A stretch of DNA of 64,000 nucleotides from Blattamonas nauphoetae (lineage: Eukaryota; Preaxostyla; Oxymonadida): NCBI GenBank assembly GCA_033064195.1, contig JARBJD010000192.1:62001-126000 (forward strand), given 5' to 3'. The notes under the pieces are model-generated. The model was given only the letters and a program-made list of their open reading frames with translations. It was not told where the DNA came from and ran no database searches. Position 1 is the first letter of the stretch, and each line of letters starts with the position of its first letter. Shown piece by piece: positions 47,384-64,000 of this stretch. Position numbers and translations under genes: made by a program.

Positions 47384-47906
47384 ATCTCACGTGTGTTTTC
47401 TCCGTTTTGATCCGGTCCATATTATTCTTTCTGCAACTTGGAGCGCCAGTAGTATAGATGGCGAAAATCGATACCTATCTAGATCGCCAAAAACACGGAA
47501 TAAATCAATTTAGACCTCAAAAACACACATTTCCTGACCCTTCGATTTTGATGACTTTTGGACCTGATTCTTACTTTATTTTGATAAAATGAGCTCCAAA
47601 AATTGATTTCAGTCGAGCCAGGGTCAAATCAATCGGCACGATCATTTGGTAGTCATCCATCAATCCAATTGACTGGCCCAGGTGGCCTAGGTGGATCGCG
47701 AAATCAAATTGGTTTTTATTTTTGGAGGTCCACATCGGCTCTAAAGAGCCTAAGCTTCGCGAAGGTCCACAAGTCCACAAAGTCCACAGTGCAGTGGCAC
47801 GCTCAGAATGCACCAGAATGACGTGCACTACCTCCCCATACAGCCAGACCATCCGTGGATTGTTTTGGTCGATTTTGGTTTTTTCACTTTTTTCATCACT
47901 ATATAA
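47384..47906. other. spacer with no supported gene
   Basis: AT-rich, with a GTCCACAAGTCCACAAAGTCCAC tandem-like block near 47764-47790. Confidence 0.35.
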
Positions 47907-48505
47907 TAGTAGTGTCAATAATCCGTACATATTCAAAAATCCGTACATTGGGGATTGAAAAATTTTGATGGGTCAAACTAAGAAAAATAAAATTTGGTTC
48001 CGCGCCGAAACCCCTGTGTCGGGAGAAAACCTCAAAATACTGTTTCCTTTAGGAATCCACACACTTTTTTCAACTTTTTGCCCTCATTTCTCCACAACCA
48101 GCCATCCGTTTTGAATCAAATAAAATGCATTGTGATCATAAAGATCTCGACAAAAGCTGCTCAAAAAATAAACGATTTTTTTGTCTAAGAATTTTTTGTC
48201 GAGAAAAATATGGGTTTTTTTCCATTATCCCAAATATCCAGAATTTTTTCTCCAATTTTTGTTCAAAATGTTCATTTCGCCAAAAAAACGTTTTTGTGAA
48301 AAACTTCATCAAAATCGGTTCCCTGGTTGTTGAGATATTGCCGAAACAATTTTTTGTTATCGGGCAAAAGGGGGTATTTTGAGGTTTTCTCCCGACACAG
48401 GGGTTTCGGCGCGGAACCAAATTTTATTTTTCTTAGTTTGACCAATATATCTTTTTCAAGCCCCATGTTACGGATTTATGAAAAGTTCGGTTTATTGAAA
48501 CATCT
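47907..48505. mobile_element. palindromic foldback element, copy F (well-preserved arms)
   Basis: About 600 bp. Roughly 73 bp of each arm (about 47971-48043 and 48371-48443) are perfect inverse copies, including GGTTCCGCGCCGAAACCCCT and GTGTCGGGAGAAAACCTC. Toward the centre the arms are homologous but diverged (TCTCCACAACCAGCCATCCG against TCTCAACAACCAGGGAACCG). No open frame of note. Confidence 0.8.
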
Positions 48506-49265
48506 ATAAGGTAATAAAAAAATTGATTTTTAAAAACTAACCTTAATTTTTGCGATCATCCAAAATTGTTCTTACAAGCCTAATATCGGTCTGACGAGTT
48601 TATATACGACGTGTTTCGTGTGATCTGAGAAGTATTTCGGGGGTTCTGGGTGATCTCAAAATTAACGCTGATTTATTTTTTATCAATTTTTTTAATTTGT
48701 ATATGAAGAGGAGATCCAGACAAAGTTTGAAAAATCCAATTTTGAGCTTCGACCACACAAACCTCTTCCAAGGTCAATCCCGATCTGCTGAGTTCATTTC
48801 TGATGTTTTCAGAGTGATCTGAGCAGTAGTTCCTGAGATATGGGTGATCCAAAAATAAACGTTAAACTTTTTTAACTTTCTGATTTTTTAATTTGTATAT
48901 GAAGAGGAGTTACAGAACAAGTTCAAGTACCGAGCCCTCGACGTAATGTTCCAAGATACTCAGGCAAAATGGTGCCCTGGTGACTGATGCGCAGAACGAT
49001 TTGGAGGTTGGATTGGAGACGGATGATCGAAAGATTGTCCCCGGGGTTCATGTTGGCAGCACTTTGATGTGCCCGTGAATCATGCCCACCCAAGACTTAA
49101 CCCTTCAAGGACTTCGCCAGCAGCAGTCATTTAGAAGGATCGCGATAGAACGATCCCCAAAGGAGTATCGGGGTGTCTATAGGAAGCTTGTACGAACGTG
49201 GGAAGGAACTTCTCTTCGGTTATTTTTGCCATCTTCATTGAACAATCATAAAAATATTCTGACAC
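48506..49265. other. spacer with a direct duplication
   Basis: Two direct copies, about 195 bp apart (around 48617-48720 and 48812-48912), share GTGATCTGAG-AGTA and TTTAATTTGTATATGAAGAG. No supported gene. Confidence 0.45.
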
Positions 49266-49268
49266 TTT

Positions 49269-49565
49269 TTAGTATTCCAACATGAGATCAACCAGAAATT
49301 CATAATACTCCTTGATTATTTTTCCATTGATTGTCTCCGTTGTTTCCATCTCAATTGATTCACCAGAACTGTCTTTGAACCAGATCTTCACCGTTGATTG
49401 TCGAGTACTTAGTTCCCACTTCTTTCGCTTCGCAATCTGTTCGTTACAGAAAGCAACATACGAATCATTGTGAGCATCAGTCTGAATCCAATCAGCATGG
49501 ATCGAGAAATTTTGAGGAATATCTTTGGATATCACTGTCGATGCATCACCGATCTCCTCCTTCAC
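49269..49565 (-). CDS. small structural-type protein of the virus-like element (edge, damaged)
   Basis: At least 98 residues, with sequence of the DIPQNFSIHADWI and YVAFCNEQIAKRKKWELS kind, a beta-rich pattern of the sort seen in minor capsid (penton-like) proteins of small eukaryotic DNA viruses. The assignment rests on pattern and position beside the capsid genes; it is tentative. An AT-rich motif like those before the other genes lies upstream (49688-49706). Confidence 0.4.
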   Translation of the reverse strand: MKEEIGDASTVISKDIPQNFSIHADWIQTDAHNDSYVAFCNEQIAKRKKWELSTRQSTVKIWFKDSSGESIEMETTETINGKIIKEYYEFLVDLMLEY

Positions 49566-49687
49566 ATGAATGAGTTTGCAGTCAAGAAAGTAGATATATT
49601 TTTGTTTTCGGGAATTGGTAAAATCATGAGGGAATTGAGCAGTGTGAGAATTCTGAATTGAGAAATAACGTTAGACCATTCTTGTTT

Positions 49688-49706
49688 TTAGCAAAAATAA
49701 AAAATC
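49688..49706 (-). promoter_or_regulatory. AT-rich motif upstream of the small structural-type gene
   Basis: On the minus strand it reads TTTTTTATTTTTGC, the same core as the motifs before the other genes. Confidence 0.5.
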
Positions 49707-49721
49707 AAAAGTGTTTAATCA

Positions 49722-51413
49722 TTAATATCCTCTCTTCACTTCTTCATACGCTTCTTGGAGACGACGATCAATAACATATCTAACTCGTGGTTGTCCATTC
49801 TCTATCCAGAACAACCAGTATGTAGCCTGATGTAATGCTAGAATAGGTGGAGGAGGACCTTCTAGAGTTGATGTGAAATATGGATCCAGTTCACCCTGAT
49901 TGATTGGTGTTCCTCTATAGACAATATTGACAGATTCTGCTGTCGAAATACCTTCTTCACCACCAGCGATTTCACTTCGATCTGTTGGAACCATGAATGT
50001 GAAAGAAGTTGCATCCGTTACTGGTCTTTTTCGTTTATATTCATTTTCTGTTTCTTTGTAGAAATAAGTGCGAGGTAAACAAATGGAGTTTTCGAACTCT
50101 TCTGTGGCAGAACATCCAATGAAATCACCGTTCACCATCATCATTTGATAGAACTCTGGTGAGATTGTTGACATTGGGAAATTGGGGAAGTTGGATCCAA
50201 GCATTTCGAATTGACCAACATATTGAGGATTTCTGAAGACTGTACATTCAGTAGGTCTTTCAGGGAATAAGCACATGAGATTCATGAGATTGTTGAGTTT
50301 GATACTGATGTTTGATCTCACTCCCATGGCATTTGCTTTTGATTGAAATGATTGGGTGTCAATTCTTTCTGCTTTCAGGACATAGACAGTCTTTGAGTAC
50401 GTGTTGATCAGTGATTGTTTTGTTGCATCTGTGATTTGATATCCGTAGCAGATCGAAGTGACTTTATCCACCGATGAGGAAAGGACATTGATTGTTGCTT
50501 CCATTGTCGAAATCTCTGAAACTCCTGAGGAGGATGGACTGTTACGTGAATTATATTGTTGAACCGGATTTCCGATTTGTGTAAATTCCTGAGTCATATT
50601 TGATAATTCTCCCTCACGCAGAAGGTCCATTTCAGCTGGGTCTGAAAGAGACATCAATGCCTTATCTGGATATTGTTCACGACTGTTTTCCAATGTTTTT
50701 CGGATGACAGTAGATGTTCGAATTGGACAGTAAACAAGTGATTCGGTTGTCAAATGAAATCTTAATCGGAGATTGCCAAAGATGGAGTTCGGATACTGAT
50801 CAAATGTACTCAGTGGAAGCAAATTCACAAATGGAATGACAAGTGGAATTGTTCTCGTGATTGTTTGAAATGCTGTGTTTAACGGAGCAAAGTAGAATCC
50901 ACACACACTTGGATCCATTCTCTGAACATTTTCCCAAAGACTGTAGCAATGCTTCATGTTGTTTTTCTCTTCATGTGACTTGAATGTGTGATACAGAAAT
51001 GATTCATGGATGTGATTATTCTGTAGTGAATTGTCAATAATGTTACCTTGACTGTCGACGAGTCTCATATCTCGAATTGCATCCGAGGATGATTTGTAAC
51101 CAAAGAACATTCCATTTTCATCAACATACGGACCCAAACTGGATGATGTTGGTTTAACATATGGAATGGTGATCGTTAGATCTATTCGTAAATGACTCTT
51201 CGAAAACTCAGTCACATCATGACCGTCATAGCACAATGGAACTTCAATTTCATCTGTGATTCTGCACGGCATTGGAGGATTTGTTGGATGCACTTCCTGA
51301 ATCGAATACACGTGAGGCTCTGAATCCCACTGTTTTGGCATATACGATTGGACTTCAATTTGTTCAATTAATGTCGATGTTGGTTTGGATTGATTTGCTC
51401 TGATACTTCTCAT
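49722..51413 (-). CDS. capsid-type protein 2 of the virus-like element
   Basis: 563 residues from ATG 51413. Beta-rich throughout. It contains STFDQYPNSIFGNLRLRFHL followed by ESLVYCPI near residues 200-240, and a C-terminal PINQGELDPYF...PPPPILALHQATYWLFW. Both blocks have counterparts at the same places in the neighbouring 620-residue protein, so the two are paralogs. Length, beta character and genome position fit a major capsid protein of the jelly-roll type, but the fold is inferred, not shown. Confidence 0.6.
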   Translation of the reverse strand: MRSIRANQSKPTSTLIEQIEVQSYMPKQWDSEPHVYSIQEVHPTNPPMPCRITDEIEVPLCYDGHDVTEFSKSHLRIDLTITIPYVKPTSSSLGPYVDENGMFFGYKSSSDAIRDMRLVDSQGNIIDNSLQNNHIHESFLYHTFKSHEEKNNMKHCYSLWENVQRMDPSVCGFYFAPLNTAFQTITRTIPLVIPFVNLLPLSTFDQYPNSIFGNLRLRFHLTTESLVYCPIRTSTVIRKTLENSREQYPDKALMSLSDPAEMDLLREGELSNMTQEFTQIGNPVQQYNSRNSPSSSGVSEISTMEATINVLSSSVDKVTSICYGYQITDATKQSLINTYSKTVYVLKAERIDTQSFQSKANAMGVRSNISIKLNNLMNLMCLFPERPTECTVFRNPQYVGQFEMLGSNFPNFPMSTISPEFYQMMMVNGDFIGCSATEEFENSICLPRTYFYKETENEYKRKRPVTDATSFTFMVPTDRSEIAGGEEGISTAESVNIVYRGTPINQGELDPYFTSTLEGPPPPILALHQATYWLFWIENGQPRVRYVIDRRLQEAYEEVKRGY

Positions 51414-51432
51414 TTATAGAAAAATAAAAAAT
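51414..51432 (-). promoter_or_regulatory. AT-rich start-site motif
   Basis: Minus strand TTTTTTATTTTTCTATAA immediately before the ATG. Confidence 0.6.
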
Positions 51433-51460
51433 ACAATATCATGATTTTCTTTTCCTGTTT

Positions 51461-53323
51461 TTATGATTTCGGGATTCCGAGTTCCTTGTGCAATGCTTTC
51501 AGTGTGTGATTTGGATAATACTCAACTTTAGGTTCGTCAATAACGAATCGTAAGACCCACCATGTTGTGGCAGTTGTGGCTAAAATCGGTGCTGGAGGAT
51601 GAGTAAATGTTGTCATATCACTACTCTTTTGACTTGGATCGAGAACATTGTAGTACGTATCAATCAGACCTTGGTAAATCGGACTTGACCTCAAAGTGAC
51701 GGGAACATTCTGACCTCTTGAACTGATTGAATCATTGCAGTTTGTTGGACATCCACTTCGTTGAGTTGAAAAGCATAAGAGGAAGTCAGTATTGTCATGA
51801 ATCGGACGTACTCTTGCCATTGTTTCATTTGGGTAAGTTCTACCACCTTCAAGATGTTCTTCAACGAGAGAATCCGTCAATGAACGCTCCAAATCATCTG
51901 GAACAGTGAGGTATGAATCAAGATTGAGTGTCGAAAATGCGAACTGATAAAAGCGAGCTCCAATGGTTGATGTCCAGTTTTCTGGATAGTATTTGTTGAG
52001 TAGATGCACACGAAGATCTTTCTGCATTGGATTGTGGAAACAAGTGACTTCATTATCGTAGTGACGAAAGAGGAGCATAATGTCCTTGGCATTAACGAGA
52101 ACCATCTGTTGAGTACAATCAATACCTGTTGCTGTTGGTGTCTTCTGAAATGGATAGAACGATATCTTTTCTGCTGGAATTGTTCCTGGACGATCCTGAT
52201 ACATCTTTTTCAGACTCTCTTTCGCAATTTCTTTCATTTTGTATCCAGCACTCATGCAGTATACGTCATCAATTTGATAATCAATAATGTTCAATGAGAT
52301 GTACTGATCCACAAATTCTGGTTCTTTTGTAACTGTTCCTGCTGAATTATAGTAAATGTCTTGAGTCACTGCTGATATCCTAAATGATTGACCAATCTGA
52401 ACAAAATTCTTGGTGCAGTTCGCAAGAAGAGAGTGGAAAAACCATGGACGATGTTGTTGACAATCGGCAATTGCATGATGAATTGGTGGTTTTGTTGAGC
52501 CAATGAAGGTCGACAATGTATTCTTCAAAGTGAGTTCAGGATTAACAGGACAACAAACAAATGCATCCTCATTGATGTATACACTGAGTTTCAGATCTCC
52601 GAAGAGACATTTTGGATGGTCAGTCATTCCTGAGAAAATGAGCAGATCTTCAAGGTTTATTGACACACGAATCGGTACCTTAATTGTGTCAGTGAAATGG
52701 CCAGCTTGAGACACTGTGGTGAAGTCTGACAATGGAATCTCGACACCTGCAACAGATTCGTCATGATTCCAAGCATTCTGCCATGGCGTGTGTGCGTGCT
52801 TCCGATTCTCCAATTGACTCTTTGGTTTGATCATATTGTAAATGTGAGACTCCATTGAAACGTCATTGTTTGCTGGACTTATGATTCTTTGATTGTTGTG
52901 AAGAACAGTAAATCTACTAAAGATTGATGCTGAATGCTTGAGTCCGACGAACATAAATATCCTCTCATTTGAGTAAGATCCAACTTTGTCTGGGGTAATG
53001 TCCCAATTGTTGACTTTCAGAGTCGTTGTTATTGTGAACGTAATGAATGAATCATCGATTTGACAAATGTCTTGATTACCAGTCAGTGGGATGATTATCT
53101 CTTGTCCTTTGTAGAAACGTGAATTCTCTGATGGTTTCAATTCTTGAATAGAAGTACTGTGTGCTCCATCATTCAAGAGGAAATTAACGTGATGTTCGGA
53201 CATCAGTTGCTGTTGTATTTGACCGATGTCATCTCTGGTGTACTTTATTGATCCTGTGGTGTTTCCAGTCAAAGTTGAGGCTCCATGTCTTTTGTTTGTC
53301 AGATGTGTAATGTGTGAGTTCAT
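51461..53323 (-). CDS. capsid-type protein 1 of the virus-like element
   Basis: 620 residues from ATG 53323. Blocks shared with capsid-type protein 2: DHPKCLFGDLKLSVYINED plus AFVCCPVNPELTLKNTL near residues 235-270, and SPIYQGLIDTYYNVL...PPAPILATTATTWWVLRF near the end. Its N-terminal part includes FYKGQEIIIPLTGNQDICQI, typical of a beta-sandwich start. Two tandem full-length capsid-like paralogs suggest a capsid built from both, as hetero-oligomers or as hexon and minor component (inference). Confidence 0.6.
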   Translation of the reverse strand: MNSHITHLTNKRHGASTLTGNTTGSIKYTRDDIGQIQQQLMSEHHVNFLLNDGAHSTSIQELKPSENSRFYKGQEIIIPLTGNQDICQIDDSFITFTITTTLKVNNWDITPDKVGSYSNERIFMFVGLKHSASIFSRFTVLHNNQRIISPANNDVSMESHIYNMIKPKSQLENRKHAHTPWQNAWNHDESVAGVEIPLSDFTTVSQAGHFTDTIKVPIRVSINLEDLLIFSGMTDHPKCLFGDLKLSVYINEDAFVCCPVNPELTLKNTLSTFIGSTKPPIHHAIADCQQHRPWFFHSLLANCTKNFVQIGQSFRISAVTQDIYYNSAGTVTKEPEFVDQYISLNIIDYQIDDVYCMSAGYKMKEIAKESLKKMYQDRPGTIPAEKISFYPFQKTPTATGIDCTQQMVLVNAKDIMLLFRHYDNEVTCFHNPMQKDLRVHLLNKYYPENWTSTIGARFYQFAFSTLNLDSYLTVPDDLERSLTDSLVEEHLEGGRTYPNETMARVRPIHDNTDFLLCFSTQRSGCPTNCNDSISSRGQNVPVTLRSSPIYQGLIDTYYNVLDPSQKSSDMTTFTHPPAPILATTATTWWVLRFVIDEPKVEYYPNHTLKALHKELGIPKS

Positions 53324-53341
53324 TTTATCAAAAATAAAAAA
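53324..53341 (-). promoter_or_regulatory. AT-rich start-site motif
   Basis: Minus strand TTTTTTATTTTTGATAAA just before the ATG. Confidence 0.6.
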
Positions 53342-53351
53342 ACATAATTGA

Positions 53352-53654
53352 TTATTTCTTTTTCACTTTCTTTAACTTTGGTTTTGGCTTCAGCTTTTCT
53401 TCCAGTCTCAGTATTTCTCCTCTGAGCTGATTTGCAACTGCTGTGTTTCCTTCATTGATTGCTTGCTCATACTGTGCCATCTTTTCTGCATGGATTTGCT
53501 GATCCGATTTCACGTCTGGAATCATCTCAACACCTGTCTGTGCAATCTTAGAAATCACTGGTCCAACAAAGGGAATGAGATTCAAAAATGGTGCTCCAAT
53601 TCTGAGAATGGTTTTGCCGACTCCTGCTAATTTTGAAAACCAACCTGGTGCCAT
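53352..53654 (-). CDS. small hydrophobic virion-type protein A
   Basis: 100 residues. N-terminus MAPGWFSKLAGVGKTILRIG, then the hydrophobic stretch APFLNLIPFVGPVISKI, then a charged coil and the basic tail KPKPKLKKVKKK. An amphipathic or hydrophobic N-terminal half with a basic tail resembles small adenovirus-type core or membrane-active proteins. Its first residues match those of protein B next door (MAPG-x-F-x-K-L). Confidence 0.55.
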   Translation of the reverse strand: MAPGWFSKLAGVGKTILRIGAPFLNLIPFVGPVISKIAQTGVEMIPDVKSDQQIHAEKMAQYEQAINEGNTAVANQLRGEILRLEEKLKPKPKLKKVKKK

Positions 53655-53673
53655 TTATGTAAAAATAAAAAAC
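53655..53673 (-). promoter_or_regulatory. AT-rich start-site motif
   Basis: Minus strand TTTTTTATTTTTACATAA directly before ATGGCACCAGG; nearly identical to the motif at 54031-54049. Confidence 0.65.
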
Positions 53674-53688
53674 TGGATTCACTTATTT

Positions 53689-54030
53689 TTATAAACCTTT
53701 GAATTGAATCTTTGAATTTGACGATTGTGCCATGTCATCATTGGAGTATCGAGCATTTCGTGGCGGTTCATAATCAATCATTTGAGATCTTTGATCTGAG
53801 AAGTCCTGTCGTTGTGGCTTTTGTGACTGATTCATTGCTTTATTTTGTTGATATACATCCATCATTCCACCTAATCCACTTAGTATTCCTCCTGCTGTTT
53901 GTCCAAACTTGTTGTTCGTTTGTGAGAGCAAGCCACCACCGACTTGAAGCAGTGTTGGAGCGAATGGTTTGATGAATTGAAAGAATTGTTTGCCGATATT
54001 TTTGAGTTTGTTGAAACTTCCTGGTGCCAT
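53689..54030 (-). CDS. small hydrophobic virion-type protein B
   Basis: 113 residues beginning MAPGSFNKLKNIGKQFFQFI, then a Gly-rich hydrophobic segment (TAGGILSGLGGMM) and a polar Gln/Ser/Asn-rich C-terminus. The shared MAPG-type start and spacing make it a probable paralog of protein A. A membrane-lytic or core role is a guess from pattern. Confidence 0.55.
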   Translation of the reverse strand: MAPGSFNKLKNIGKQFFQFIKPFAPTLLQVGGGLLSQTNNKFGQTAGGILSGLGGMMDVYQQNKAMNQSQKPQRQDFSDQRSQMIDYEPPRNARYSNDDMAQSSNSKIQFKGL

Positions 54031-54049
54031 TTATGTAAAAATAAAAAAT
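54031..54049 (-). promoter_or_regulatory. AT-rich start-site motif
   Basis: Minus strand TTTTTTATTTTTACATAA directly before ATGGCACCAGG. Confidence 0.65.
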
Positions 54050-54065
54050 ACAATTCATGAAATAT

Positions 54066-54653
54066 TTATCTCGGTATTGCTTTCGTCAGTGAAATGCCAT
54101 AATTGAGAATAGTATTGTAAGCTTCATTGTAGGCAATACTCATATCTTTTCCACCAACGAGAATCTTGAAAATCGTTCGAAATACAGGTAGTTTATTCAG
54201 ACATAGGCACTTGTCAGACAAATCATCCAATTCGATCACCACATCATTGATTCCAGTCAATGTAGCAATCAGAGCACATAAATCACTTTGGTTTGTGATA
54301 AGTTTCTTTGACGGTTCTATGAGATTATTCAGGAGTTTCTTTTCACATGCAAAAGCATTTTTGTACACTACTAGCAGTTGATCTTTGAATGCTGCGATAT
54401 TCGAAGTATATTCTCGAAGTGGAATTGAACGACTCTGGATCGGTGCTGATGGATAGATCTCTAGTGGTGGTGGATCGTAAATACCTGATTCATTGTTCAT
54501 TTCAACATTTGCTCCTTGTTCATTTCGATCTTCGAGCTTTTGTCTTCCAGAAGATGCTCCTTTACTATCGATGATGACATTGTTGGTGATTGACGTTGGA
54601 ACAGAAGAAGAACTTGTGTGTTTTGTAAATTGACAACTTAGAATTGGCTGCAT
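54066..54653 (-). CDS. virus-like element protein, unrecognised (195 residues)
   Basis: ATG at 54653 chosen (MQPILSCQFTKHTSSSS); a GTG three bases upstream is not needed. The N-terminal 75 residues are polar and contain PPPLEIYPSAP, a late-domain-like Pro-rich motif; the C-terminal part is helical (LCALIATLTGINDVVIELDD). No family recognised. It belongs to the structural block by position and by its upstream AT motif. Confidence 0.5.
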   Translation of the reverse strand: MQPILSCQFTKHTSSSSVPTSITNNVIIDSKGASSGRQKLEDRNEQGANVEMNNESGIYDPPPLEIYPSAPIQSRSIPLREYTSNIAAFKDQLLVVYKNAFACEKKLLNNLIEPSKKLITNQSDLCALIATLTGINDVVIELDDLSDKCLCLNKLPVFRTIFKILVGGKDMSIAYNEAYNTILNYGISLTKAIPR

Positions 54654-54675
54654 CACTTTCTATAACAATAAAAAA
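54654..54675 (-). promoter_or_regulatory. AT-rich start-site motif (weaker)
   Basis: Minus strand TTTTTTATTGTTATAGAAAG before the ATG at 54653. Confidence 0.5.
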
Positions 54676-54689
54676 TTGATTTTAATGTT

Positions 54690-55643
54690 TTATGATTCCA
54701 TTTCTTTCTCCAAGTGTGCGAATCGAGCATATTCAGGCATATACACTTGTTGGTATTGACCTACGTCTCTTGTTCGATATGCTTCAGTTGTCAATTGATT
54801 CAGAACTGTTGTTATATCAGCAGTGTATTGACCAAGGAATTCACCCAAATATGTTGGATTTTTAGTCGTTATTTCAAGAAATTGAGGATTCACCAGTTCT
54901 TTGAAATCTTTTCTGTTCTTGACTCTCTGACATTCTTCATTTGTGCTTGCGAAGTTTTGAACATTATCTTCAAGCCATTTATCCCACATCTTTGATGCTA
55001 TTTTAGACTGAATTGAATTGAAAACCATATTGTCCAATACTCCATTGCTTATATCAACTGGATGATCTTTACTGGCACGATACACCTTCAAAACATTCGT
55101 CATGTAGTCACCAACTGCTTTCTTCATTATTGCATAAGGTTGTTGTGATCGTTGCTTTTGCATATCTCCATAGCTCACTTCATGATAGTTTCCAGGCAAA
55201 TCGTATGTTCCAGTCTTGAGGAAATTGGTATGTGCAGCTTTGATTCTTCTTCCGTGATCTTGACGAAATGATGAATAGGGTTGTTGTCTACGCATATCTG
55301 GTGTTGGATTCATTGAATAGTATGTCTCGACGACAGGTCTACTATTGTATGGTGCCAACATGAACCCATTCGCTGCAATCAGATCACCACTTTCTTTGTC
55401 ATAAATCATCACATCTGGAACTTTTCCATGTTTTTCCATCTGAACAGTCCAATTTTGTCCAGTCCTTTCAATGTACTCCAAAGCAGATGGAACACTACTG
55501 AGTGCAGAATTGAATTTTGTTCTTATGTCATCGTCAGCATAGATTCGTTTCATTGCTGCTTGAGTATCTTGTGAATAACTCATTTTTGGTTTCTTTGGTT
55601 GTGCTTTTCTTGCTGTTTTTTGGTACACAATCTTTTGCGACAT
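54690..55643 (-). CDS. virus-like element protein, unrecognised (317 residues)
   Basis: Starts MSQKIVYQKTARKAQPKKPK, a basic N-terminus, followed by mixed alpha/beta sequence (LSSVPSALEYIERTGQNWTV; DVMIYDKESGDLIAANGFML) and a helical C-terminal half (LGEFLGQYTADITTVLNQLT). No family recognised; it could be a core or connector protein. It faces the ATPase gene across a 61-bp divergent region. Confidence 0.5.
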   Translation of the reverse strand: MSQKIVYQKTARKAQPKKPKMSYSQDTQAAMKRIYADDDIRTKFNSALSSVPSALEYIERTGQNWTVQMEKHGKVPDVMIYDKESGDLIAANGFMLAPYNSRPVVETYYSMNPTPDMRRQQPYSSFRQDHGRRIKAAHTNFLKTGTYDLPGNYHEVSYGDMQKQRSQQPYAIMKKAVGDYMTNVLKVYRASKDHPVDISNGVLDNMVFNSIQSKIASKMWDKWLEDNVQNFASTNEECQRVKNRKDFKELVNPQFLEITTKNPTYLGEFLGQYTADITTVLNQLTTEAYRTRDVGQYQQVYMPEYARFAHLEKEMES

Positions 55644-55704
55644 CTGTGTATTTCATACAAAATAAAAAACCCAAAACTATATTTTAATTCGTGATAAATC
55701 ATAA
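55644..55704. promoter_or_regulatory. divergent promoter between the 317-residue protein and the ATPase
   Basis: On the minus-strand side the usual TTTTTTATTTTG core occurs at about 55659-55670. On the plus-strand side the ATPase start is preceded by TATATTTTAATTC and CATAAATG. The ATPase lacks a clear copy of the core motif, so it may be expressed at a different stage (inference). Confidence 0.5.
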
Positions 55705-56550
55705 ATGCAAAGAACAAAAATGTCATTAACAGCGTATGTGAATGCAAAAATAAGTGAAGCATCGAATCGAAATGTTTCTCATGAAGTGCAAACACAAATA
55801 CATCCAGACCTAAATTTCAATCGCAATAGTGTTAATGTCCTGGTTGGAATCAGAGGAAGTGGAAAGACATTCAATGCTCTTCGAGAAGTTGCCAAACTCC
55901 AAAATGTTCAAGTTAGGAATGAACTCTTTCACCTTTTTGTCTTCGTCACTGATAAGAACATTGATCCAACCTTCGACAAATTCAAACCAACACTGAACGT
56001 TCCTTACGTGAAAGTGAAATATGATGAAGCACTACCATTTCTGTTGGAATTGTCTCAATCAAAGGCAGCTTATGAAGAAATTATTGACAATCAGTGGCAA
56101 GATAGAATTACTGATGAATGCAGGGATGACCTCTTTGATGCTCTTTACATTGAGGACTTCTCAGTGAAAAATCTCCAAACGATTATACTCCTTGATGACT
56201 GTCGCCGGATCCTCGGTGAACGTAGAACATCCAAAAATAGAATGACAATGATGGACTTGTTACTGGAGAATCGACAACCAAAGTTCACATTCTTTCTGAC
56301 GATGCATGAACTCTTCAGTTTGTCAGCAGATATGAAGTCAAACATTGATTCAATGTGGATTTTTGGAGGATTCAACAAAGAACGAATCAGTCGAGTCTAT
56401 CCTCAACTGAATGCACCAATTGACATTCGACAGTTCTGGAACATCTATCAACGAAAACAGAAATGTGAAGCAATCATTCTTCGATACAATACTGATGGAG
56501 TTGCACTGACTGAGATCAACAAAGATGGACTAATTCGTGGTGTCAGATAA
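55705..56550 (+). CDS. packaging-type ATPase (FtsK/HerA-like, A32 type) of the virus-like element
   Basis: 281 residues from ATG 55705. Walker A loop VLVGIRGSGKTFNALRE near residue 50, Walker B IILLDDCRRILG near residue 160, and a downstream sensor-like Asn/Gln block (RQPKFTFFLTMHE). This arrangement matches the genome-packaging ATPases of Polintons, virophages, adenovirus-like and NCLDV viruses. It is the hallmark that links the neighbouring beta-rich proteins to a virion. Confidence 0.75.
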   Translation: MQRTKMSLTAYVNAKISEASNRNVSHEVQTQIHPDLNFNRNSVNVLVGIRGSGKTFNALREVAKLQNVQVRNELFHLFVFVTDKNIDPTFDKFKPTLNVPYVKVKYDEALPFLLELSQSKAAYEEIIDNQWQDRITDECRDDLFDALYIEDFSVKNLQTIILLDDCRRILGERRTSKNRMTMMDLLLENRQPKFTFFLTMHELFSLSADMKSNIDSMWIFGGFNKERISRVYPQLNAPIDIRQFWNIYQRKQKCEAIILRYNTDGVALTEINKDGLIRGVR

Positions 56551-56840
56551 TTCTTGGATGAGACTGCCAATCGTGTCTGTCAACGTACGAATTGATTCTT
56601 CAATGTCTGATAATCTTTGATCAATCGATAATGAGTTGGATTCACCAATGTTGTCATTGTTTATTTTTCGAAGTGCAATCTCCCCTCTGATTTTTGTGAT
56701 TTTGTATCCATCAATTCTGATCAACCGATTCAGTTTCTGAGTGGTGTATTCGTTCAGTTCTTTTCTGTTCTTTTCCAAAAACTTCTGAAAATCATAGACA
56801 GGCTTCTGATAAGGATCCGACTGATCCTACGGTTTTTGAT
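56541..56840 (-). CDS. coiled-coil remnant at the right edge of the virus-like element
   Basis: The minus-strand frame reads KPVYDFQKFLEKNRKELNEY and ends LSDIEESIRTLTDTIGSLIQ. No ATG is visible at its start, so it is partial. It overlaps the 3' end of the ATPase by about 10 bp. Function unknown. Confidence 0.35.
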
Positions 56841-57216
56841 CCGACCGTCCATATAATGCTTATTTCTTATTATTTTGTGGAATTTGAGTCTTTATTCGAA
56901 CAAAAAAGTGATATTGAAGTGAAAATAGAAAATTGTAATTCATAGTTTTGAACATGAGGGTTTGAGTTGATTTGAAGATAATGGTGCTGAAAACAAGAAT
57001 GAAGACAAATAACAACGAGGAGGAGCATTTCGTGATCGAGATTCATGCGAATGAACACCGGATGATCGTCGGAATCGATGATTTCAACATTCATGAAACC
57101 ATGACAAAGGGACAGATCCATCCACTTCACCCAAAGTGGAGTTAATTCGAACACAAACACCTTTCTTTTGTATTCTGAAGACAGAAAAGTGAATTTTAAT
57201 CAATACAGCTAAACTT
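56841..57216. other. right flank of the virus-like element
   Basis: A minus-strand open frame (56870-57160; VFELTPLWVKWMDLSLCHGF) has protein-like composition but no start or family. No terminal repeat was identified here. Confidence 0.3.
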
Positions 57217-57358
57217 GTTCTGAAATGAAGAGGAATAATTCAGAAATGAAAATGATTGTTCAGAAATGAAGAAGAATTGTTCAGAAATGAAAAATGATTG
57301 TTCAGAAATGAACATGAATAATTCAGAAATGAAAACTAATAATTCTGAAATGAAAAAC
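57217..57358 (+). repeat. left arm of an inverted satellite pair
   Basis: About seven copies of a 19-24-bp unit around TTCAGAAATGAAAATGATTG. The order of variants matches 62505-62728 in inverse, including GAAGAGGAATAATTCAGAAA at the outer end. Confidence 0.8.
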
Positions 57359-58889
57359 AACAGCTACAGGTATTCAAGACAACATATTTATGATGTTAAG
57401 CGGACGGACAGAGCACCAGATCTTGAGGACAGAGGACAGAGGTCTTGTCCGATTCGGAAATCCAGCTTGATATGCATTTGTTTCGTCTAAATTCACCTTC
57501 TTCCTGCTCGTAAAACACGCTTTGTCTTCATTTTGCTCGGTATTATGCCTGAGAATGTCTCGAAAAGACGATTCCAAAACAATAATTTTGCATTGCCTTT
57601 TTCTGACACTATAGTGAACTTTATCATTCAAGATTTGTTCATCCCCATCTAAAATTGTTGAAAATGGCGTTAAAGTGCGTGAAAACCGATTTGGTGGCTA
57701 ATCACGAGCTGGAGGGGTACTGTCCTACAAACTCCTAATTAGGAGTTCAGAGGACGATCGGCCCAAGAGAGGACAGAGTAGGACAAAATCGGACAAGCAC
57801 CTTATATTCATACTGGAACTTTCTCTCAATTAGTTCATCCAACTTCTGTCGTTATCTCAAAACAGGACAAATCGGACATGTCCTGTCCTGTCCTGTCCTG
57901 TCCTTTGATCTGATCCTCTCACCCATGTCAAGTTGTTCTTGTCTTCTCGCTTCTTTCAGATCCTCTCATCTCGCGAATTGATGTCAATACTCCATTCAAC
58001 ACTTCTTTTGTCCGGTTTTGATTCATTTTTGTCTCCATCGTAACCAAATTTGTGGAGATCTGCTCGACTATTTGTACACTCTCCTTTTCTCTGTCCATGA
58101 CTACAACCTTCTTTGATAAATGCCAATCTCACAATATTAGTTTGCCCTTCCGTCGTTTTTTCCATTTGATTCGTGTTTTTCTCTTCATTAGTCTGGAATT
58201 GGCGTCTGGTTCAAATCCAGATATGATCTAGACCGAAAGAAATGAGATATTGAACATTCATCATATCAGTATACTTCTCCATTGTTTTAACACTCGTATT
58301 TTTCTATTTCTCTCACTTGGTTCGGAGTAGATATCTTGATCACGCTCAAGTCAGAAATGGAGGTCATGAGGATGTGCTACGAAGTCGCTCACACAACAAC
58401 TCCATCGAAAAAGCCTGCTGTTCGGATTGATTGTCTTCTTATCATCTCCTATCTCCAACCTCTTAACATCCTAATCATCAAAATGAAACCCAAATGTCAC
58501 GTATCAGATCCACTTCACTAAGTGATATTCACACGTTTGTTCTTCGTTCTCGATCATTCTCTCATTCCATAACAGACAGCCATCATCGTTTCTCTTCTTC
58601 AACATCTTCCGATGCCACAAATCCAGAACAGAAACTTCAGAACGGAAGTGTACCAGTTTTGTAACATATCTGCCATTTCTGCGGCCTTTCTCGCCCTCAA
58701 CAGATTCACTTCATCATTGTTTTTCGATCAATGCAGAGGATGTTCATGTACTGTTCATGTTCTCGATCTCTCACTCGACATCCCATTTCAGCGCAATATC
58801 ACAATCATCTTTCATATCTCTTTCATTTCCCGAGGATATTACTATCAATTCGCGCACACGGCTCTCCATTCATTCTCATTTCGACCAAT
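57359..58889. other. simple-repeat-rich spacer
   Basis: GGACA-rich words near 57400-57460 and 57740-57850 and a CCTGT pentanucleotide run at about 57877-57902. No supported gene. Confidence 0.4.
57877..57902 (+). repeat. CCTGT microsatellite, about five units
   Basis: Five consecutive TGTCC units within the larger GGACA/TGTCC-rich stretch. Confidence 0.85.
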
Positions 58890-58892
58890 CTC

Positions 58893-59779
58893 ATGACATC
58901 AACTTCCAAATCGAACCTGACACCCAGTGAATTACCCAGGTCCGTTCTTCTTCCTTCGGTGGCATGGCAGGATCCAAAGTCTGGAGCCGAACTCGACGCC
59001 GAGTATGCTCACCTCATCGTCTCTGCCGATCGAAAACAACAACGACGACTGACGAGCCCCATCGCCCGACGAACATCGCTTCTCGATTGTCCCTGTCCCG
59101 CAGATGCACCAAACAAACCAGCTCTCACATGTCGCCCGTTCGGGCGGGACATAAAGTCCCGTTCTCTCTCTCCTGCAGGGGCGGAGTGATGTAGTGGTCG
59201 AGGATCTCCTAACACAAGCTTCGTTTGATCTCCAACGTACCTCACCATCCACAGCAGCTATCCGCTGCACCGCTTTATCCGCCTCGTCTGGCCAGCTCGT
59301 CAGCATCTCTCTTTCTCCGTCACTCCGCTCCAACTTTCCTGCAACTTTCGCTCTCCTTCATCCTTCGTCTCCCATTCTCCAACAAAAACGCTCACCTCCG
59401 CCACCTCAACCCGACACAAGAAAGGACATCAACCAGTGGCTCTCGTCTCACTCGCACTAAACCACATCAACAACGTCATCGCAGTTGGAAGGCGTGGATG
59501 AGCGAATTGAAGAGCAGAAGGCAGCCGACGAGCAGTTCATGTCGTGCTGCTCCACATGTTGCAGATAAACTCTCCACTGTGTATGTCCAGACATCACTTC
59601 GCCTATCAACAAAAGACCATCCATCCCCTCTCCACTGTCAGGTGACACACTCGACATTGGCCTCCCCTGTCACATCACCATCCTTCTGCCCCGCCAACGG
59701 AGAAGACGAATCGGTTCAGGAGACCGAGGTCGACTCAGTCAGACTGCTTGTTCTCGTCTTCGAACATCACAACCACTAA
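58893..59779 (+). pseudogene. unrecognised eroded coding stretch
   Basis: Begins with an ATG reading MTSTSKSNLTPSELPRSVLL and continues with AWQDPKSGAELDAEYAHLIV. Further frames (FDLQRTSPSTAAIRCTALSA; ENGEDE-type acidic end) follow out of phase. Composition is protein-like, but the frame changes and no family is recognised. Short introns might explain one of the changes. Confidence 0.3.
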
Positions 59780-59929
59780 CTCCCTCTTCACACCACCTTC
59801 CCTCCTCTCGACCACGTCACTTCCGACCAGACTGAATTCGCTCATCCACAACTTTATGCCTTCACAAAACTGATGATGAGTGCTCTGGGAAAGCCACATA
59901 CGAACTTGACAGCCCTTTCATCATCACCA

Positions 59930-61034
59930 CCACAATCTCAACACTCGATCTTCTCGTTCCATGAACCAGACTCACCAGCTCTATATCTTCCGCAGAACTT
60001 CTCCACATCGAAAGCGAGCTGTCGGAAAGAAACACAAGAAATTTTCACAATCCATCAGACGATGCAAGCTCGGTCATTCTTTTCTCCAGTACCTTCACAA
60101 CACTATATCTTCGGCTCCTCGTTCTCGTCGTGCACATCGAGCGAGGATGGAAGAGTGATTTCTGTGTCCTGCTCAGCCAACCCGTTCTCTTCGCTTTCCT
60201 GATCACGCTCTTGTACTTCCTCCTTCCGTTCAGCTCTGATGTGCTTTATTCCCCAACGACAGCCCAAGTGTTTGTTTCTGGAGCCAGCTGCTTCTTGGAT
60301 GGAGATTTCAAAGTGGACTACAAACTGTCGGACATGGACTGGAAATTTGATCTGAACTCGGCGATGTCTCCCGTGCCATTCTCGTCCGGCGTGGGTGATA
60401 TGCTCCTGAAATCATGCAAATTCGAACGCACTTGTATTCTGAACTCAATACTCGTCTGTGACGTCTCTGAAACTGTTGCTCTCGAGTCATCGTCGTTCTC
60501 AACCACACTCGCACCCAGCCACTTATCGTCCTCGACACGATCCAAACGGTGACATTCCAGAATGTACAATTTGATGATTGTGTCTCATCGACACTAAACG
60601 AAGGATTGTGTGAATACGAAACAACCACCACGTTGACTGTGTTCATTGCCATCGCTGAATGCATCGCTGTGCAATGCGGCGGGTCTCTCAACTTGAAAAG
60701 TGTGTCGATGTCTGGAAACGGCGATACCAAAGGCAATTTTGCTCCAGCACGGAAGTGCTTTCGATGTGTTTCAGAAGGAACAGCGAACATAGCCTCGGCA
60801 AGCGGAGATGGAGCAGATGCTCCACTGCACTGGATCTCGGGCTCCGAATCCACAATCAAGAAAGATGACAAAATACACGCGTCTCCTCTATTCGTCGCTG
60901 AACTTAAGAACAACGAGAGCACCAGCACACTCACCAAGAACGGGACGATCAACATCGAGCTCTCTTGGAAATGGCGACTCATCTTCGATAACGGAATGCA
61001 CAGCACGGAAACAATCAACATTCGCTCCTCCTAG
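59930..61034 (+). pseudogene. decayed adhesin-like surface-protein fragment
   Basis: Segments in changing frames show the surface-protein pattern: SSFSSCTSSEDGRVISVSCS, DMLLKSCKFERTCILNSILV and VTFQNVQFDDCVSSTLNEGL, then AIAECIAVQCGGSLNLKSVS. These S/N-x-x-F-x-x-C units are beta-helix-like repeats of the same kind as at 32729-33990. No intact start or membrane anchor remains. Several frame changes indicate decay. Confidence 0.55.
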
Positions 61035-61199
61035 TCCATTTCATCATCTTCATCCTCCTCTTCTGCCATCCCAAGAATCAACAGAAGCCAACTCTTGCAT
61101 CTCAGCAAAAACCAGACAACATCCAGCAAGACATCAAGTTTGAAGACGAGATCATGGTCGTGGATCCAACAACAGCATATTTCGGCAAGCACAACAGCG

Positions 61200-61410
61200 A
61201 TTCACACGCTGGACTCGAGAGGGGGAAAAGGGAGGGGACGGGACAAGGGAGGAGTGAGAGATGTTGTGAAGGAAGTGGAGGGAGAGAAAGGAGGAGGAGA
61301 GAATAGGAGAGGAGGCAGGCAGAGGAGGAACAGAAGAGACGAGAAGAAGATGACAGATGACGTCGGGAGGAGGAAGAGTGACGACAGAGGGAGGAAGAGA
61401 GGAGGCGAAT
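61200..61410 (+). repeat. purine-rich low-complexity tract
   Basis: Mostly GGGA/GGAGAGA-type sequence; the apparent Arg/Gly/Glu-rich and Ser-rich frames here are composition artefacts. Confidence 0.7.
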
Positions 61411-62504
61411 GATGGAGAACAAAACCTCAGCAACCTCTGATTTGTTCCCACGGATGACAACGACACGCTATTTGCCGTTTTCGCACCTCACACGAAAAGT
61501 GAGACTCTGAGAATCCACAACCGACGAAGCAGGATGAACGTGGAAGAAAGACATGATGAGGAAGGGCTGAGATAGCTGAAAAGATGAGATCTCCCTCAAC
61601 CTCGTTCAATCTCTTTTTCAAAAGACTATCATTCCATTCACCTCTCGTTTGAACAACAAAAAACTGTGAATTGAGATTTGGATTTGATCGGACCCATAAT
61701 AATAGTTTTGCTCCCAAACTCGCTCATTCTGACTTCATTCGCCACGAGGAGCCAAAAACAGCTTTAAAATTCATTATTATCACCGAAAACGCCCAAAAAT
61801 CGCAATTATCCTTCTATTTCAGAATCGGACACGAAAAAGTGGAGGGAGGACAAAAAGAGAGGAGGACAGGACAACTTAACATCATAACAACATATATTCG
61901 AATGTCCACTCTCATTGATTGAATGAACGGTTGATCAAACACTCAATGTCAAAATAAACAGTTCTCGTTGTGTCAGAAATAGGTTGCGTGTCACATCAAA
62001 ACAGGGTCGTTTGCGTTTATTGTGGAATAAAAAAAGATGGTTTGTGATAGTGACCTACGAAACACGCTTTTCTACCGGATCAGAGAACAGATCTTCACTA
62101 ACTTTTGAATGACTCACATCAGAACAATTGGAAATCAAGACAATTAATGAACGTGAATTACCTCACAAACTGTTCTCGGATGGATTTAGGTGAAGATTGG
62201 TCAACTCGCTGAAACACAATCGACTTTTTGCTGGTTTTGGGATCATACGCAGGTTTAACATGGTCCAATAACTTCACAAATCCCCATGATTGTATCAAAA
62301 TTGACAAACAATGGCTATTTTACCAGAAACCCAGCTGTCTGTATGGATGAACCCGATGAGGACTGTTTTCTCATTCTTTTATCTTTGACATTCTCATTTG
62401 AGATATTTCATCTTGTTCAGTTCAATTATTTGTTTTTGGTGGAATGGTGGAGCAACGTGAAGACATCCTGTACCTTTTTTCAGTGGTATCAATGAAATAC
62501 CAGA
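61411..62504. other. spacer, no gene seen
   Basis: AT-rich sequence without supported coding on either strand. Confidence 0.4.
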
Positions 62505-62728
62505 CTTGTTTTCATTTCTGAATTATTCATGTTCATTTCTGAACAATCATTTTTCATTTCTGAACAATTCTTCTTCATTTCTGAACAATCATTTTCATTT
62601 CTGAATTATTCGTGTTCATTTCTGAACAATCATTTTCAATTCTGAACAATTCCTCTTCATTTCTGAACAATCATTTTCATTTCTGAATTATTCCTCTTCA
62701 TTTCAGAACTATTCTTCTTCATTTTTGG
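62505..62728 (-). repeat. right arm of an inverted satellite pair
   Basis: About ten units of CATTTCTGAACAATCATTTT type, inverse to 57217-57358. This arm holds an extra block of units relative to the left arm. Confidence 0.8.
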
Positions 62729-63638
62729 CATGTTAATTGGATTGGACGGTGCCAGCGTTGGACTGGACAATTGACTTCGGTTGGATATTCAATTTTCATC
62801 CTGTTCATTTTACTCTCATTCCATATATTTGTTTCCTTTCACTTGAAAATGAGAATAGTCTGTTGAAAATCAGCGAAATGGTGAGAATCCGATGATACTC
62901 TTCTTCAAGTGACGAGTTGCTTGATCCACCCACCATTGGACGTCATTGGATGTCATTGGACATTTCGCTGATACTTTTGTTCTGATGTCTTCTCAATTAG
63001 TGCATACCGTTTTTGAAGTTTTCAAAGAGTCGGCAAAATTGGACTGTCCGATTGGACATCCAGTCCTGGACGTCCAATCGACATCTAGAAAGGGTCACAG
63101 TTGCTTCTCCATTTCGATGTTGGTGTGATATTACCACCCATCTCTCACTTTTTTGATTAGTCTTAGACCTCATCACTTTGTTTGAGCGAGGTAGTGCCTT
63201 CATCTCTGCATTTTGCTGCCCCTGGATGTGACCAAACTCAGAACAGTTTGAGTCGCCGTTGATAGTGTTTTCTCTCTTTATTTTCAATTTCTAGCCACTT
63301 CCTTCACTTCTTCTCTCCATCTCTTGCAGGAACAGGGTGCTCATTCATCCACAAGCGAAAAGTCAACACGATCGAACTGTCGGACGTATTCTCCTCTGAG
63401 AAGAAATGAACAACTGTCATCGAATTGGTAGAAAATGGACTCAGAGTATTTTCAAAGGGAACCTCCAAGACGACGGGCATATTGTTCCCCAATATGCACT
63501 AGGATGGGAGATCTGTTGCCATCGGTTTGCATCTCTTGCTTATTCATTTTTGACATTTTTCATCGTATTGGACCCTCCTCATTCATATCTTCACATTCGA
63601 CATATAGATCGGGAGTTAAGGGAGATTTGAGCAGATCG
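62729..63638. other. spacer with TTGGAC-rich words
   Basis: Repeated ATTGGAC/GTCCAATC words between about 62740 and 63080. Around 63330-63500 a weak frame (ENGLRVFSKGTSKTTGILFP) faintly recalls the SPRY-like proteins of this lineage but is interrupted. Confidence 0.3.
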
Positions 63639-63676
63639 CGAAACAGGCCGAGGCGAAGAGGCAAGAATCAGAGGAG

Positions 63677-63970
63677 ATGGTAGCTAGGAATATGGAATCA
63701 GATGATGAGAAGAAAGATTCGAAGACAGTTGTGATTCCAAAGGAAGTGAAGTCTCCAGAACCCAGCCAGAACAAGATTGAACAAGAACACACTGTTGCAC
63801 TTGTTGTAACTCTAACTGATCAAACGATGGCCGAATCAATCGGTGAAGAAAGAAGGAATCAACAAAACAAGTCGAGAAGAAAGAAGAACCGAAAGTTCAG
63901 GACAATGAAATACTTTGCGAAAACAATGGAAGAGAAGAATTTATCATCGATACAAGGTTTGTCAGAATGA
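63677..63970 (+). CDS. small charged hypothetical protein
   Basis: 97 residues from ATG 63677 to TGA. It is Lys/Glu/Ser-rich with a coil-like C-terminal half (NQQNKSRRKKNRKFRTMKYF). The frame is open upstream for 15 more codons (FEQIAKQAEAKRQESEE), so an upstream exon may exist. No family recognised. Confidence 0.4.
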   Translation: MVARNMESDDEKKDSKTVVIPKEVKSPEPSQNKIEQEHTVALVVTLTDQTMAESIGEERRNQQNKSRRKKNRKFRTMKYFAKTMEEKNLSSIQGLSE

Positions 63971-64000
63971 ATTCCCAGAAATTTCATCTCATCTTCATTG

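Follow-up and report, generated by a model that had tools for sequence, protein, structure and literature searches.

Two tandem capsid-type genes in a Polinton-like element of the oxymonad Blattamonas nauphoetae, probably split by a hAT-like transposon

Polintons (Polintoviruses) are described, in the accessible part of Krupovic et al. 2014 (PMC4028283), as elements of 15-20 kb that encode an rve integrase, a DNA polymerase (PolB), a packaging ATPase and a capsid-type gene, a description that fits the element reported here, in which the packaging ATPase and the capsid-type genes are putative. Among metamonads, Maverick-Polinton capsid genes of a 'Metamonada group' are reported from Trichomonas vaginalis (DUF4106) and other parabasalids, with related genes in Streblomastix strix, an oxymonad (Bellas et al. 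2023, PMC10120064, as far as the available text goes). Since Maverick-Polinton-type capsid genes are thus known from Streblomastix, the statement in the initial annotation of this DNA that no oxymonad virus of this kind had been described was incorrect. One protein family is named in that source as the major capsid protein (MCP) of T. vaginalis. Its accessible text and that of PMC11071308 make no mention of duplicated, paralogous or second MCPs or of tandem paralogs, and the corresponding portions of PMC12721341 and PMC12220804 mention neither two MCPs nor paralogs. Likewise, among the papers listed on duplication or paralogy of major capsid genes, few of them from subscription journals, none describes a Polinton with tandem capsid paralogs, going by titles and the opening lines of abstracts.

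Outside the Polintons, shells made from two types of major capsid protein are described for the Sphaerolipoviridae and the Simuloviridae. The capsid proteins of the Sphaerolipoviridae are single jelly-rolls, and those of the Simuloviridae are described as single jelly-rolls as well. Both families comprise viruses of archaea and bacteria, whereas the two proteins considered here (A and B) have about 600 aa each and come from a protist. Two kinds of major capsid gene per integrated element are also found in cryptophytes and chrysophytes; however, the accessible text describes two hybrids, which join virophage-like and PLV capsids of different groups, rather than tandem paralogs present throughout a family (PMC12220804).

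The DNA analysed here (the window) is a stretch of 64,000 nucleotides of B. nauphoetae contig C104 (C104:62001-126000), and the genome searched comprises 88,311,006 bp in 837 contigs. With a probability that we place at about 0.86, the feature under study makes up one half, with the structural genes, of a complete Polinton/Maverick (an endogenous element of Polintovirus type) in an oxymonad genome, later split by a hAT-like transposon. Many copies of the element are present in this genome. Like the metamonad Maverick-Polintons, it has a metamonad (oxymonad) host, many integrated copies and the Polinton gene set, and B has a Streblomastix relative (P0003); unlike the T. vaginalis capsid gene, neither A nor B matches DUF4106 (PF13388). 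The element is an ordinary Polinton; what is unusual is its duplicated capsid-type gene. In comparison with Polintons generally, it has two full-size tandem capsid-type paralogs and an endonuclease VII/HNH-like stretch inside the PolB frame, and no penton or adenovirus-type protease is recognised among its scanned proteins.

Two capsid-type genes in tandem

The structural half contains the following genes, given in window coordinates:

49269..49565, minus strand: 98-aa gene remainder with a GTG start; in C538, C165 and C590 the gene is open for 149 codons (136 when counted from the first Met)
49722-51413, minus strand: capsid-type protein A, 563 aa, open frame, paralog of B
51461-53323, minus strand: capsid-type protein B, 620 aa, open frame, paralog of A
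53352..53654, minus strand: small hydrophobic/basic protein, 100 aa, open frame
53689..54030, minus strand: small hydrophobic protein, 113 aa, open frame, dN/dS 0.073
54066..54656, minus strand: conserved protein, 196 aa, open frame, dN/dS 0.077
54690..55643, minus strand: 317-aa protein, open frame, weak match to phrog_18144 (no function annotated), E = 0.0018
55705..56550, plus strand: putative packaging-type ATPase of 281 aa with the motifs GIRGSGKT (Walker A) and IILLDD (Walker B)
56530..56778, minus strand: C-terminal gene remainder, 82 aa, cut by a transposon; other copies have frames of 128-193 codons there

The 563- and 620-aa frames, the two small proteins (100 and 113 aa) and the ATPase-like protein with its Walker-type motifs all lie where the initial annotation had placed them. 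A and B are real tandem paralogs, with 26% identity over 510 residues (E = 2e-39), a similarity far beyond chance. At least 77 copies of A and at least 71 of B were scored in the genome, the window copy being included in each count, and several of the copies listed contain stop codons. The two genes stand in tandem on the same strand at each of 20 loci picked from the scored A copies (L009-L028) and also at L037 (21 of 21). Four of the 20 loci (L009, L018, L019 and L023) have B split into two pieces, and at L037 A and B are decayed. The alleles of A and B are uncoupled between copies: identity to the window copy is 85% for A and 98% for B in L017, and 98% for A and 84% for B in L010. This suggests recombination among co-resident elements.

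Selection was measured as pairwise dN/dS. An open frame entered the set if it covered at least 97% of the query with no less than 55% identity, and the coverage rule biases the set towards intact copies. Excluded as partial were 6 rows for A, 16 for B, 3 each for the ATPase and the 113-aa protein, 1 for the 196-aa protein and 13 for the 317-aa protein; slice ends account for some of these partial rows. The 100-aa protein, with two full sequences, stands outside the set. For A the median dN/dS is 0.144 (21 sequences; 208 of 210 pairs, since two with dS <=0.02 were dropped), and for B it is 0.135 (14 sequences, 91 pairs). The medians of the neighbouring genes are 0.063 for the ATPase (7 sequences, 21 pairs), 0.073 for the 113-aa protein (16 sequences, 120 pairs) and 0.077 for the 196-aa protein (19 sequences, 171 pairs). 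The 317-aa protein has the highest median of the six genes, 0.319 (8 sequences, 28 pairs). Every pair in all six genes lies below 0.5, the pairs not being independent of one another. Intact copies of A and B are under purifying selection, as are the intact ATPase and small genes. Sequence homology, the presence of the pair in copy after copy and purifying selection on both genes thus support the earlier proposal of a duplicated, full-size gene of putative capsid type.

A search of 5.8 billion proteins finds two relatives of A (P0001 and P0002) and one of B (P0003). An alignment search added no further relatives of A or B, scans of IMG/VR with the capsid-type and ATPase queries confirmed no relative, and phage records queried with A only gave none. 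P0003, a partial protein of Streblomastix strix, shares 34% identity with B across 230 residues and 30% with A across 208. A likeness of its N-terminus to the 100-aa protein was considered and was not borne out on comparison. In an unrooted tree of A, B and P0001-P0003, P0003 is nearest to B (SH-aLRT 89.4 and bootstrap 79 with the full alignment; 90.3 and 81 on the P0003 columns), and the places of P0001 and P0002 are weakly supported. This position of P0003, which has moderate support, would imply that the duplication predates the separation of the oxymonad genera Blattamonas and Streblomastix, but the tree is no more than suggestive. A genome search with DUF4106 gave no match, and the query matched nothing in controls either, so that absence of the family from the genome is not shown.

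Termini, a nested transposon and the replication genes

The initial annotation confined the feature to 49269..56840, which is too short, as the left terminus of the element is at 47448. The left end comprises:

47442..47447, no strand: left target-site duplication AGCGCC (6 bp); the identical six bases follow directly after the right terminus at C104:136416
47448..49188, no strand: left terminal inverted repeat, beginning AGTAGTATAG, interrupted by a small insert
47912..48504 (limits approximate), no strand: small MITE-like insert in the left repeat, with 109-bp inverted arms at 47932-48040 and 48374-48482

The first 453 bp of the left end are found inverted at C104:135964-136416 with 100% identity (rounded, at least one mismatch being visible near the end), and the right terminus lies at window coordinate 74416 (C104:136416). 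From one near-identical inverted terminus to the other, the element on C104 spans 26,969 bp. Subtraction of 8,358 bp (the large insert described below plus one target copy) and of about 593 bp for the small insert leaves an element of about 18.0 kb. The small insert is lacking in L011 and L015, where homology jumps from about 47903/47911 to 48505. Six other left ends begin alike, four with AGTAGTATAG and two with AGTAGTGTAT. The C165 copy has terminal inverted repeats at both ends, and the inner part of the left repeat recurs, inverted, at its right end.

Target-site duplications of 6 bp are typical of rve integrases, according to the accessible part of PMC12220804. A perfect 6-bp direct repeat, AGCGCC, flanks the C104 copy, one of four copies with visible flanks. 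Comparison of flanks finds no 6-bp duplication at the C25 and C646 copies; the C165 copy has the same flanking sequence, inverted, on both sides and no 6-bp duplication. Recombination between copies is a possible cause of the missing duplications. Several copies are arranged head-to-head or have inverted identical flanks (L015/L038 of C165; L016 with L034; L020 with L032), which reflects either rearrangement or assembly fold-back. The left flanks of L017 and L021 indicate copies apparently inserted in the PolB gene of other Polintons; thus, the elements appear to nest in one another.

Homology between the window and other copies stops at 56798, where the copies on C165, C232, C538, C590, C400 and C335 continue uninterrupted. 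Truncation of the element at this position was considered and is ruled out; here the element is interrupted by an insertion and continues at window coordinate 65149, 1.1 kb beyond the window end (stretch L039). The insertion is delimited as follows:

56791..56798, no strand: ATCATAGA, left copy of the 8-bp target duplication made by the transposon; the second copy follows the insert at window coordinate 65149 (L039)
56799..64000 and on to window coordinate 65148, no strand: hAT-like transposon within the Polinton, 8,350 bp, recognised by its ends and 8-bp duplication

The transposon ends are CAGGCTTCTG and CAGAACCCTG, and the 8-bp repeat ATCATAGA flanks them precisely. We take an 8-bp duplication together with CAGG-type ends to fit a hAT-like transposon; inspection of its frames by eye recognised no transposase. 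Its first 402 bases are present whole at five other places in the genome at 99-100% identity and at a sixth at 97%, and such near-identical copies suggest recent activity. Inside the transposon, tandem repeats with units of about 21 bp lie in inverted orientation at 57215-57336 and 62508-62629.

Since the transposon has split the element across the window end, the replication and integration genes appear to be missing. Beyond that end, the same copy contains:

65309-67225 (window coordinates), minus strand: integrase frame, open, 638 codons stop to stop, Pfam rve match
67382 to at least 70999 (window coordinates), minus strand: PolB frame, 1,205 codons or more, PHROG DNA polymerase match

When the C165 integrase is used as a genome query, it matches C104:127312-128826, on the same contig as the window and 1.3 kb beyond it. 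This copy therefore carries the retroviral-type (rve) integrase expected of a Polinton, with a Pfam rve score (E = 6.8e-4, 20.3 bits) below the Pfam cut-off of 32.6; the C165 and C590 integrase frames also score below it (E = 9.1e-4 and 8.1e-3). By eye, the stretches EIDL and GDGEAAW of the integrase resemble acidic motifs one and two, and a D stands at the third position.

The B-family DNA polymerase expected of a Polinton is found as well, by PHROG DNA polymerase matches in the C104 copy (E = 1.3e-7) and the C590 copy (E = 2.8e-8); neither frame has a Pfam match (for C104, none at E <= 0.1). The C165 copy is homologous to C590 across the continuation that bears PolB. In other frames of the genome PF03175 is above its cut-off, including one on C530, a contig that also carries decayed A and B. 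Within the PolB frame, the polymerase match is preceded by an endonuclease VII/HNH-like stretch (L039:3385-6999, minus strand, residues about 627-726), which is also present in C590; the endonuclease VII match of this inner stretch in the C104 frame has E = 3.4e-10. A separate 838-codon frame (L037:5237-7753, minus strand) lies beside the decayed B of that locus; its motif VVDIDI looks primase-like by eye, and it perhaps belongs to another inserted element.

The initial annotation had reported no recognisable polymerase or integrase, which is true only inside the window, and had read the locus as a hitherto undescribed lineage of viruses in which PolB and integrase have been lost and only capsid genes and an ATPase are kept. 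Such a lineage would fit the window itself, where no polymerase or integrase frame lies near the element. However, the same copy has both genes and a matching right terminus beyond the window, and other copies, free of the insert, carry both genes too. Copies of the same genes within an ordinary Polinton with PolB and integrase were the very finding that the annotation had named as decisive; a lineage without a replication set is thereby refuted, and we give it practically no credence. As this case illustrates, genes can seem to be lost when a nested transposon coincides with a window edge.

A possible shell of two paralogs

Several features suggest that A and B are capsid proteins: their size, a neighbourhood of small hydrophobic proteins and an ATPase with Walker motifs, the Polinton context and the constraint on both genes. 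The size is one that we presume to fit Polinton major capsid proteins, and the 281-aa Walker-motif protein is taken to belong to the packaging-type (A32/FtsK-like) ATPase family. The profile matches of this ATPase in Pfam and PHROG are marginal. Its best PDB sequence match is Cdc45 (E = 0.0039), which we take as chance. For A and B themselves, searches of Pfam, PHROG and PDB sequences gave no relevant match. Remote homology to solved capsids was considered and rejected, the weak PDB matches being two apolipophorins only (E of 0.43 and 0.61).

A and B could instead be other large, beta-rich, paired proteins of the element that have no part in a capsid. In favour of this, neither protein matches a known capsid family or a solved structure by sequence. 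However, the pair adjoins a packaging-type ATPase and small hydrophobic proteins, the element has Polinton termini, an integrase and PolB, and the size of both proteins suits Polinton major capsid proteins. In addition, B has the relative P0003 in Streblomastix, a genus with Maverick-Polinton capsid genes, although the connection is by genus only (PMC10120064, available text). We regard a non-capsid role as improbable.

The proteins scanned include no recognised adenovirus-type cysteine protease and no recognised single-jelly-roll penton, the stretch analysed in this copy ending before C104:133001-136389, the last 3.4 kb ahead of the right terminus. As such a protease is identifiable in only 74% of Polintons (PMC4028283, accessible part), an unrecognised protease does not exclude a Polinton. 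The unrecognised penton bears on a further reading, in which both proteins are capsid proteins and only one builds the facets, the other having taken on a different task in the shell, at the five-fold vertex or in the capsomers that surround it. This reading would explain why no penton is recognised among the other element proteins scanned, and it agrees with two proteins that are strongly diverged (26%) yet constrained alike. On the other hand, pentons diverge fast and are often missed by sequence, and the penton could be the 136-, 196- or 317-aa protein or the product of a gene near the right end. Such a division between facet and vertex seems rather unlikely to us.

A bolder reading, to which we give less than even odds, is a Polinton family whose shell is built from two co-evolving, co-essential, full-size double-jelly-roll paralogs. 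In this family the duplication would predate the Blattamonas/Streblomastix split, the second paralog may replace the penton, and the alleles of A and B would recombine between elements. In our main reading of the element, the integrase would insert its linear DNA and PolB would copy that DNA, probably by protein priming, as judged from its family only; the ATPase would package the DNA into a shell containing both A and B, either mixed in the same capsomers or at separate sites.

Should A and B both prove to be capsid proteins with a double jelly-roll, the family would show how an architecture with one capsid gene splits into a pair of specialised subunits, a step also seen in larger DNA viruses that have several capsid paralogs. 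In addition, the constraint on the capsid-type genes of B. nauphoetae agrees with the idea that Polintons of metamonads still are, or were until recently, viruses and not transposons only.
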